DNA of 64,000 bases, from contig SSBO01000001.1 of NCBI GenBank assembly GCA_005281725.1, positions 8,398,115-8,462,114 of the forward strand, in the 5' to 3' direction. The position numbers were made by a program, and so were the translations under genes. Below are positions 34,212 through 37,200 of the stretch, one piece after another (position 1 is the stretch's first letter; each line of letters starts with the position of its first letter). The notes beneath the pieces are model-generated. The model ran no database searches. It saw only the letters and a program-made list of their open reading frames with translations, and was not told the origin of the DNA. The DNA is from Wuchereria bancrofti. Lineage: Eukaryota; Nematoda; Chromadorea; Rhabditida; Onchocercidae.

Positions 34212-37200
34212 CTATGCTTTCATTATGTAAGCAATCCAATTCCCTTGTTCATAAAAATATTTCTCAACAGTACAACCACCAGCATCGTTGATCAAATCTT
34301 CGAGTTCAAAATCACGGAACAAATGATAGTACCTAAATTAAAACAATAATGAATGCTAGAAGCAATTCAGTCTATTTCTTAACAGTTGTATCATATCACC
34401 TTTTACGCCATTGCCTTAACAGTAACTGAACAATGACTAAAATGTAATCTAAAAAGTATTTAACAGATTCAATATATTCAAAAGAAGTATTCAAATACGT
34501 AATTTTTCTATTTAATGAGAATTTCATTAATTCCATTGTTTCCATGCACTGATTCAATTTCATTCTCAATTTTATCAAGAGAAATAACAAAAAGGAATGT
34601 CGTCGAGTACCTCAGAAATCGACTTCCATCAGCATTTTGAAATGGAACAAGCATATCTGGTTGAGTGAATTCTCTTCCCTCATGCACCCGCAGTCTTCCA
34701 TGAGTGTCGCGACGATTCATCTGTTAAAATGTTAACTTCCTTCATATGTATTCAAACAAAACTTCAAAACTTTTAATTTGCAATTTCTGTGAGACATTTT
34801 GTGGGGACTGAAAAAAGGTTAATGGTTTGAAAAAGTTTAAAACTTGTCGCTCAAATCAAAACAGTTCAGATTATCCCGTCTGAAATTGCGACAGTGTATG
34901 AGAAAAACAGTATAGTCTGAAACCTGCACATCGCGCTTCTTTTGACGCATTTTCAAATATTCAGACGGCTCATCACATAACTTCTGCTCGTATGCCCAAA
35001 CGGTAATGCACGCTTGTCCACCTGGTTGCAACACACGAATAATTTCTTGAATTGCATGAATCCTTAAATGAAAAGTACGCAAATTACAAAGCTATTGTAG
35101 ACATCGTAAAAAATTGTAGACATGGAACAACACACAAGTTGTCGGCAAATAGGCCGAAAGTATTGATACAGTAACTAGAGAAAGGGATTGTATATAGTGT
35201 ATAAAGGATCTTATTGTTAATAAAGAAACAAGGGAGGGCGCTAACAGGCAACACAAAAGTGGGAAAGGAGCAACCAGATAATAAAAGAGCAAATTAACGA
35301 TGTGGATTTGATTTCAACAAAGAGGCGCTCTCAGCGGTATAAGCAGAGCAATTTCTTATTATGGATATTACACCGGGTCGACGACGGGTTGGCGGACGGT
35401 GGTGTTAGGGAGCGCTTAGGTCGCGTTAGAGAGGAACGGTTAGGAGGACGAGTAATAGGGATTCGCTCTTAGGACACCAATAGGACGACGCGTTTATAGG
35501 ACATTTTAACTGATAGACGGATAATTTTTGGTTACTAACGGCGACAAACAAGAAAAGGTTTAATTACCCGAGTTTGAGATTAAACGACGTGATTTCGACG
35601 AAGAGAAATTCAACGAGTGGAGAAATACAAATGCAAGAACAATATTCTTGCAATAAACGACGACAAGCAAACGATCAAATCAAGCAACGATCAAACCAAC
35701 CGACAGTTACGACACTCGACGACAATCCAAGGATTAAGAAGAAAGCAGGAAACAATTAAATAAACAGATATTCGTCCCTTAAAAAAGGGGGAAATATAAT
35801 TTTTTTTCCTACACAAGTAGAACTAGTAAAGCAGTAAATTATTTGCATGTTGGAAAATTTCCCGTACACTGGACTGCAATCTTTTATATAAAATTAAAGA
35901 AAAATTTACATAAGCTAGTACCTTCTCATTTTTGTAGTTAAATGATGGATGACAGCAATGCATAAGGCTGCACCTGCACTAGAATTTTTGAAAGGTAACG
36001 ATAAAATATTTGCACGCAATACATTACATTGTTTTTGGTTAGCTATAAGACATAAATTGTTGCATAAGTCACAACCAATCTGAAATACAATCAAATCCGT
36101 CTTTTAAATTTCTAAGAGGTGAAACAAGTCAATGTCGATTTGAGATCTTGTTTACATTAGGAATTTGGATTATTCCTAATCATTCTCTAAACGAGCAATT
36201 GTCTATAATACATAATTCAAAACAATTTTCTCATATCAAAAGTTTAAAAGTTAACTTCCAAATATAAAGGAAATGTACCTTGATAAGTGCATCATCAAGT
36301 TTGAGGTACTTTCCATTACCGCAACCAATATCATAAATTATTGTTCCAGGTTCAAAATTTGACAGAAATTTAGCAACACCATTCCACTGTGCGTGTCGAG
36401 TCACGTCAAAATGATCTGCTATAGATTCATAAACCTAAAAAGATAAATCCAAAAGCAAATTCAAAAATTGTTTAATAATTAGTTTATATTAGATAGAACA
36501 AAGAACAATGATCGATGCTTCTTACTGCGGAAACATATTGATTCTCAATAGCTGCACCAAATTCATCACTATCCGGAACTTTCATTGCACCATCCCGATC
36601 CCAGTCACAATATTCAATGAAAGCACACTGGCATTTTTCTCGTATCACATTTCGAAATGTAAAAGAAACTCTCAACTGTCTCAGCATCAATCTATTTGTC
36701 ACCGGATTTATATCATACTTCCGCTTTGCTATACTATAAAATTTTTCATTATAAAAAGCTCGCAAAATATTTATGTGATGGAAAAAAAAGTTTATAAAAA
36801 ACTTCTCACATGCATCCATTTAGCATTTAAAAAAAGTATTAGTAAGAAAACAACAAAAAAGTAAAATACCCATGCTTCCATCGATATCGTGACTCTCCTC
36901 GCAACACTGTCAAACTAAAACGTGGCAAAAGAACATCATAAATTGTTGAAGTGTTTGCAAAATCACGAAATTCCATAACGAGATCTAAGAAAATAATAAC
37001 TTGTGAGTAGTTGTGCTCGAAACGAATTGACAATCTCAAAATGTGTAAAATGATAAGATAGTAGAAATTGGTGAATATGGCCTACTTCCACGGTTACGTC
37101 CGGATGAATAAACAAATTTATTCACAAATATATTTTCACGACATTTTTTTCAGATAATTTTCCAAAAAAGAAGAAAAAATGTGCAAAATAAACCTGAAAG

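Follow-up and report, generated by a model that had tools for sequence, protein, structure and literature searches.

Spliced-leader SL1 sequences at the U3/U5 junction of BEL/Pao long terminal repeats in Wuchereria bancrofti, and their possible role as the R repeat

How does a nematode spliced leader come to lie inside a mobile element in an intron, and could it have a part in the life of that element? The question is raised by a 64-kb window of the Wuchereria bancrofti genome (the whole stretch of DNA that was analyzed), in which 21 of 22 bases at 35557-35578 on the plus strand are those of SL1 (GGTTTAATTACCCAAGTTTGAG), the single change being A to G at leader base 14. This is the only match in the window at three or fewer mismatches, and none of 100 dinucleotide shuffles of the window contained one, which rules out a chance match and agrees with the initial annotation, where the leader was taken as real and chance as very unlikely. 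That annotation also read the sequence correctly on several other points. The leader is followed directly by AT rather than GT, it lies in an LTR-type insertion, and its orientation is opposite to that of the host gene.

A solo LTR with an internal leader

The insertion extends from 35140 to 35813, starts with TGTCGGC and ends with CCTACA, giving the TG...CA form, and has CAAGT on both sides (35135-35139 and 35814-35818). It is a solo LTR of 674 bp on the plus strand with a 5-bp target duplication, and genome matches place it in class A of the genome's BEL/Pao elements, its borders being those found by alignment of the copies. It stands antisense to the minus-strand reading frames of a methyltransferase gene, in the intron after the frame at 35915-36103, which matches Methyltransf_11 (E 4.9e-5). 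The initial annotation names the gene ALKBH8 and the intron its eighth. Judged by position relative to the leader, the first 417 bp (35140-35556) would be U3, the leader itself, recognized both by its match to SL1 and by comparison of copies, would be the start of a presumed R, and the 235 bp 3' of it (35579-35813) would be R/U5, as alignment of copies and comparison of modules suggest. Read by eye, the plus strand also has a possible TATA box, TATAAAGG, at 35200-35207, about 350 bp upstream of the leader, and two AATAAA motifs that are possible poly(A) signals, at 35652-35657 and, near the LTR end, at 35759-35764. The LTR had no match in a phage collection.

This anatomy changes where the leader must be thought to stand. 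The initial annotation had envisaged SL1 between the leader and the first ORF of the element; it is found instead inside the LTR, at the U3/U5 junction, and therefore both LTRs of one element can carry it. Two other origins were considered and rejected for the window leader. An SL RNA gene or a 5S copy is ruled out because the Rfam model of SL1 RNA (RF00198) scores 18.2 bits at 35557-35654, below its cut-off of 75, and the context is thus, as first proposed, not that of an SL RNA gene. A retrocopy of a trans-spliced host mRNA would be a single insertion with SL1 at its start and poly(A) at its end, and this reading fails because SL1 lies 417 bp inside an LTR and that LTR is present in many copies.

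SL1 in the LTRs of the genome

A search of the 86.5-Mb genome with 35140-35815 gave 96 matching pieces (94 candidates, of which 40 were scored). SL1 with zero or one change was present in all 13 class A matches that aligned unbroken across the leader, a count that leaves out tandem, broken and more changed leaders (e.g., L022, L024-L027, and L029-L031). As three of these matches (L011, L012, and L014) have common flanks, the 13 represent 11 insertions, four with an exact SL1 and seven with one change. The initial annotation had proposed comparing other copies, with a fixed part of the element and a one-off cDNA capture at this locus as the possible outcomes; the recurrence of SL1 in related LTRs upholds the first and removes the second. 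Contig C98, where class A copies form the 5' and 3' LTRs of one element with a primer-binding site, shows to which family class A belongs. Between two class A LTR matches it has matches to a Pao peptidase (PF05380; C98:7358-7830) and to an integrase zinc-binding domain on the same strand, and class A is therefore BEL/Pao. Stop codons occur within some of the Pao peptidase stretches.

Across the whole genome there are 371 SL1 matches at two or fewer mismatches. In an SL RNA gene, the leader is followed by GTA. Leaving GA, GC, and GG outside the count, exact SL1s are followed by A, C, or T in 28 cases, by GT and a base other than A in 178, and by GTA in 24, while at least seven SL RNA genes are at or above the Rfam cut-off among the 50 scored of 30,033 candidates. 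The AT noted after the window leader is thus a trait of class A, and GT followed by a base other than A stands after the 178 exact SL1s elsewhere. Of the 206 exact SL1s without GTA we fetched 124 (all 28 of the first group, and 96 of 100 listed among the 178) and sorted them by their upstream side into LTR classes A, B, C, or D or into tandem-leader contexts. Every one of the 124 has an LTR context, 122 as determined by script and two by eye. The wider set L001-L170, loci picked by SL1 or LTR similarity and hence no random sample, contains 171 leader-like sites at four or fewer mismatches, among which four are SL RNA genes, two are unassigned, and three were assigned by eye.

The LTR classes take their names from the final bases of U3, and SL1 lies at the corresponding point of the LTR in the class A relatives and in four other classes, the classing script having placed a few C-like sites in D. 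Class A and part of class B have other stretches in common, and these are therefore not five unrelated families. A Pao peptidase lies within 8 kb of 23 of the 121 exact SL1 sites on large contigs (20 on the same strand, three on the opposite one), compared with 1.65 for random places (at most 9), the count using 93 of 116 peptidase rows; the peptidase at C8:557885 lies between class D leaders. Our searches show that LTRs of several BEL/Pao classes have the SL1 22-mer as a fixed component, at the U3/U5 junction.

The same picture emerges when SL1 is kept out of the query. With 231 bp of class B U3 ending just 5' of the leader, which gave 160 candidates, all 40 scored copies enter an intact or damaged SL1. 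It is exact in 25 and changed or broken in the other 15; one of the 40 is cut off by N, and the 40 include duplicates (L151-L153 have common flanks). The first 134 internal bases of a class B element gave seven matches, of which five reach the internal start, and in all five, which are of one class B type, the preceding LTR contains SL1 (three exact, two with one change). A class E internal-start query returned only itself and one fragment. With the class D U3 end, the 40 scored full or nearly full copies are 96-100% identical, and class D is therefore young. Separately, the U3 of this young class has tandem repeats, further copies of a 61-bp piece being present at 84-bp spacing in L148 and the 40 scored places. 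Inverted LTR pairs a few kilobases apart were also seen (C2:944918 and 947831; C84:4448 and 12718; C3:9164250-9178790); the C2 copies have the same flanks and are therefore duplications or assembly folds, not separate insertions.

Standing presence is not the same as exceptional conservation, which was considered as proof that the host renews the leader and is not upheld. Among the 11 class A insertions, copies differ at 5.1% of sites in SL1 and 13.7% in the LTR, and 55 of 625 class A windows of 22 bases differ as little as SL1 or less, so that SL1 is not uniquely conserved in class A. In 34 class B copies chosen by U3 and aligned without shift, ungapped variation is 3.8% in SL1 and 9.8% in the last 22 bases of U3, and the last 12 bases of U3 (ATGTTAAATAAA) vary by 0.5%, less than SL1 does. 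Furthermore, L009 and L010 have SL1 changes in common, as do L013 and L017, despite different flanks, and in these independent class A insertions SL1 was therefore inherited and not renewed by the host. Most of the SL1 variants that class B copies share are seen in copies that have the same flanks or lie close together, and so do not decide between inheritance and renewal in that class.

Module exchange and signals at the leader

Over the 60 nt that precede SL1, class B copies with gtgtct, gtgcgg, and gtttcac modules are 85-89% identical to one another, compared with 80-91% for copies with the same module. Over the 60 nt that follow it, their identity is 51-52%, where shuffled sequences give 49%. 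These values combine motif classes with direct identities for up to 30 pairs per comparison; the attgag (62-67%) and gtttatta (68-74%) copies of class B, with their more distant U3, are left out of the count. Downstream modules were unassigned for 21 class B sites, 17 of which are by eye of the gtgcgg or gtgtgg type; the identity comparison omits the 15 of these 21 that had enough sequence. The class B gtgcgg module corresponds to the terminal portion of the class A module, SL1 being attached about 90 nt deeper. The gtttcacgaca module of 10-11 nt follows U3s of both B and C and is the same as the final stretch of a longer C module, the junction of the gtttcac type lying in a related longer module at a point with no preceding AG. 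The class E module (34 of 40 bases) is also found behind a class B U3 followed by a spacer and a second leader. Some LTRs have two tandem leaders, and a few have a partial third. The exchanged unit is the mature 22-mer, free of SL RNA intron sequence, and the U3/U5 breakpoints respect both of its edges, which points to trans-spliced RNA as the probable source. As a separate observation, the tandem-leader spacer of L029, L030, L031, and L027 contains a stretch that elsewhere stands just before a 3' LTR, followed by half an SL1, and may be read as a rearranged product of reverse transcription.

The leader is also close to signals that matter for an LTR element. The primer-binding site of the fetched 5' LTRs begins 20, 47, 48, 50, 52, 73, 74, or 234 nt 3' of SL1, distances that come from 13 of 15 motif matches, those at 148 and 188 nt being excluded by their sequence. 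In one class B element, whose 5' and 3' LTRs are at C9:10252035 and C9:10257935, the pair is identical over the 66 nt that run from SL1 to the end of the LTR and then diverges, one copy running into the primer-binding site and the other into host DNA; a target duplication sought for this full element gave no clean 5-bp match. One class B type has its LTR end 11 nt 3' of SL1, with 33 nt from AATAAA to the LTR end. An AATAAA no more than 8 nt upstream or 40 nt downstream of SL1 is present at 83 of 84 class B, 35 of 38 class D, three of five class C, and two of two class E sites, against a background of 4.4% in U3. It is present near SL1 at none of 23 class A sites, where the AATAAA motifs, read by eye, lie far 3' of the leader; copies within a class are not independent, and the association is thus one of four classes in five. 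On a minor point, L049 and L109 have GAGGTGAGGTAAT just after the primer-binding site, which resembles a 5' splice site and is close to that of the SL RNA (GAG then GTAATTG).

How the leader may be kept in place

R in known LTR elements is delimited by a promoter and a poly(A) signal within the LTR. For the elements described here, we consider the chances roughly even that the 5' end of the genomic RNA is set instead by trans-splicing, with the encoded SL1 serving as the R repeat. Transcription would start upstream in U3. The encoded leader ends in TTTGAG, which is similar to a nematode 3' splice site, and the host would splice SL1 on at this point, thereby restoring the same sequence. The element RNA would then begin with SL1, and its poly(A) tail would be added either inside the SL1 of the 3' LTR or beyond it. 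In the first strand transfer, this second SL1 could pair with strong-stop DNA that terminates in SL1, and an acceptor further in would shift SL1 deeper into U5. An RNA that starts with SL1 could move onto any U3 that ends with it, so that RNAs of different elements would exchange U3s via the 22-mer, and this would account for nested shortening and tandem leaders as well as for the swapping. Taken further, and held here only tentatively, the elements would have handed the definition of their RNA 5' end and of R to the host SL machinery, SL1 acting as R and as a universal joint for LTR halves. Both the position of SL1 at the U3/U5 junction and the exchange of modules at its edges are as expected of an element that uses SL1 as R. 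Renewal by the host would leave no inherited SL1 variants, and their presence in class A is the main result contrary to a strict form of this reading. As a guess, with the AATAAA motifs of class A far 3' of SL1, a long R there might allow early transfer. Also speaking against the reading are the lack of AATAAA near SL1 at the class A sites, the finding that SL1 is not uniquely conserved, and the gtttcac junction with no AG in front of it.

A serious rival, which could well be true even though we lean toward doubting it, is that the leader is simply encoded and no trans-splicing is involved. SL1 would have been captured long ago, once or a few times, would be transcribed as the start of R or within it, and would be kept as a look-alike of host mRNA, the swapping being ordinary recombination within R. 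The suggestion in the initial annotation that the element encodes an SL1 mimic may still hold. The inherited SL1 changes in class A are what an encoded leader would give; a leader inside the LTR is inherited in any case, and SL1 is less diverged than most of the LTR. However, SL1 at different depths of related U5s and the tandem leaders need repeated addition or transfer, and, with AATAAA directly before SL1 at 83 of 84 class B sites, R can hardly start far from SL1, although a start upstream is still allowed. The module swapping and the short distances from the leader to AATAAA and the primer-binding site are better explained by trans-splicing that would define R than by a mimic.

It is unlikely that the leader is a passive passenger, added to expressed element RNA, integrated (as inferred for Brugia malayi, PMC7181701), and copied since then without function. 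The changed or broken SL1 in 15 of 40 class B copies would be no surprise in such a case, but random capture would not pick the U3/U5 junction, where the leader stands in five classes whose flanks differ, and in the young classes SL1 is exact in the majority of copies. That the leader is a copy of an SL RNA gene or 5S cluster, or a chance match, can practically be dismissed: nothing beyond the 22 common bases speaks for it, and against it stand the Rfam score already given, the bases after SL1, which are unlike those of SL RNA genes, and the empty shuffles.

Genomic traces of trans-spliced RNA have precedents. Retrocopied genes of dinoflagellates carry relics of the leader; those are retrocopies of host mRNAs, whereas here the leader is inside the LTRs of mobile elements. 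Closer to our case, 316 elements with an SL1 signature are reported in Brugia malayi, 120 of them integral and 60 within 1 kb of PAO elements, with some SL1s flanking a PAO element on one strand, and the authors infer that expressed PAO RNA received leaders, which were then integrated (PMC7181701). The likeness is clear, with SL1s outside SL RNA genes, many near PAO and some paired on a single strand. A link between SL1 and PAO is thus already in print (PMC7181701). In the portions of that report available to us, SL1 is described as flanking, whereas in W. bancrofti it occupies the U3/U5 junction within the LTR; the exchange of modules, the leaders in tandem, and the distances to AATAAA and the primer-binding site likewise go beyond that account (PMC7181701). 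As far as those portions extend, the place of SL1 inside the LTR and the module swapping are new here. Cer1, a Gypsy/Ty3 element of Caenorhabditis elegans, is similar in being an LTR element whose RNA can receive SL1, which joins a spliced 2.4-kb mRNA, the 8-kb RNA not being trans-spliced at that site; the available parts of that paper describe no SL1 in the LTR, unlike the LTR-encoded SL1 found here (PMC3315495). In the open-access literature as far as its texts were available, a body that has most subscription papers outside it (e.g., older work on Ascaris elements), no report places SL1 inside LTRs or as R. If SL1 trans-splicing does set one end of R, replication of these elements would require an RNA-processing step of the host that varies from one nematode lineage to another, and the ready exchange of LTR halves and the many exact SL1s outside SL RNA genes in the assembly would be explained.

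Finally, two loci deserve mention in their own right. In L022 and L036 (about 1384-1460), a class E LTR apparently lies inside the SL1 of a class A-like LTR. The leader breaks off after CCCAAG or picks up again at CCAAG, as though the element had inserted into SL1 as its target. The leader at L036:1397-1418 ends in TTTCAG instead of TTTGAG, and TTTCAG is the usual end of a nematode 3' splice site.
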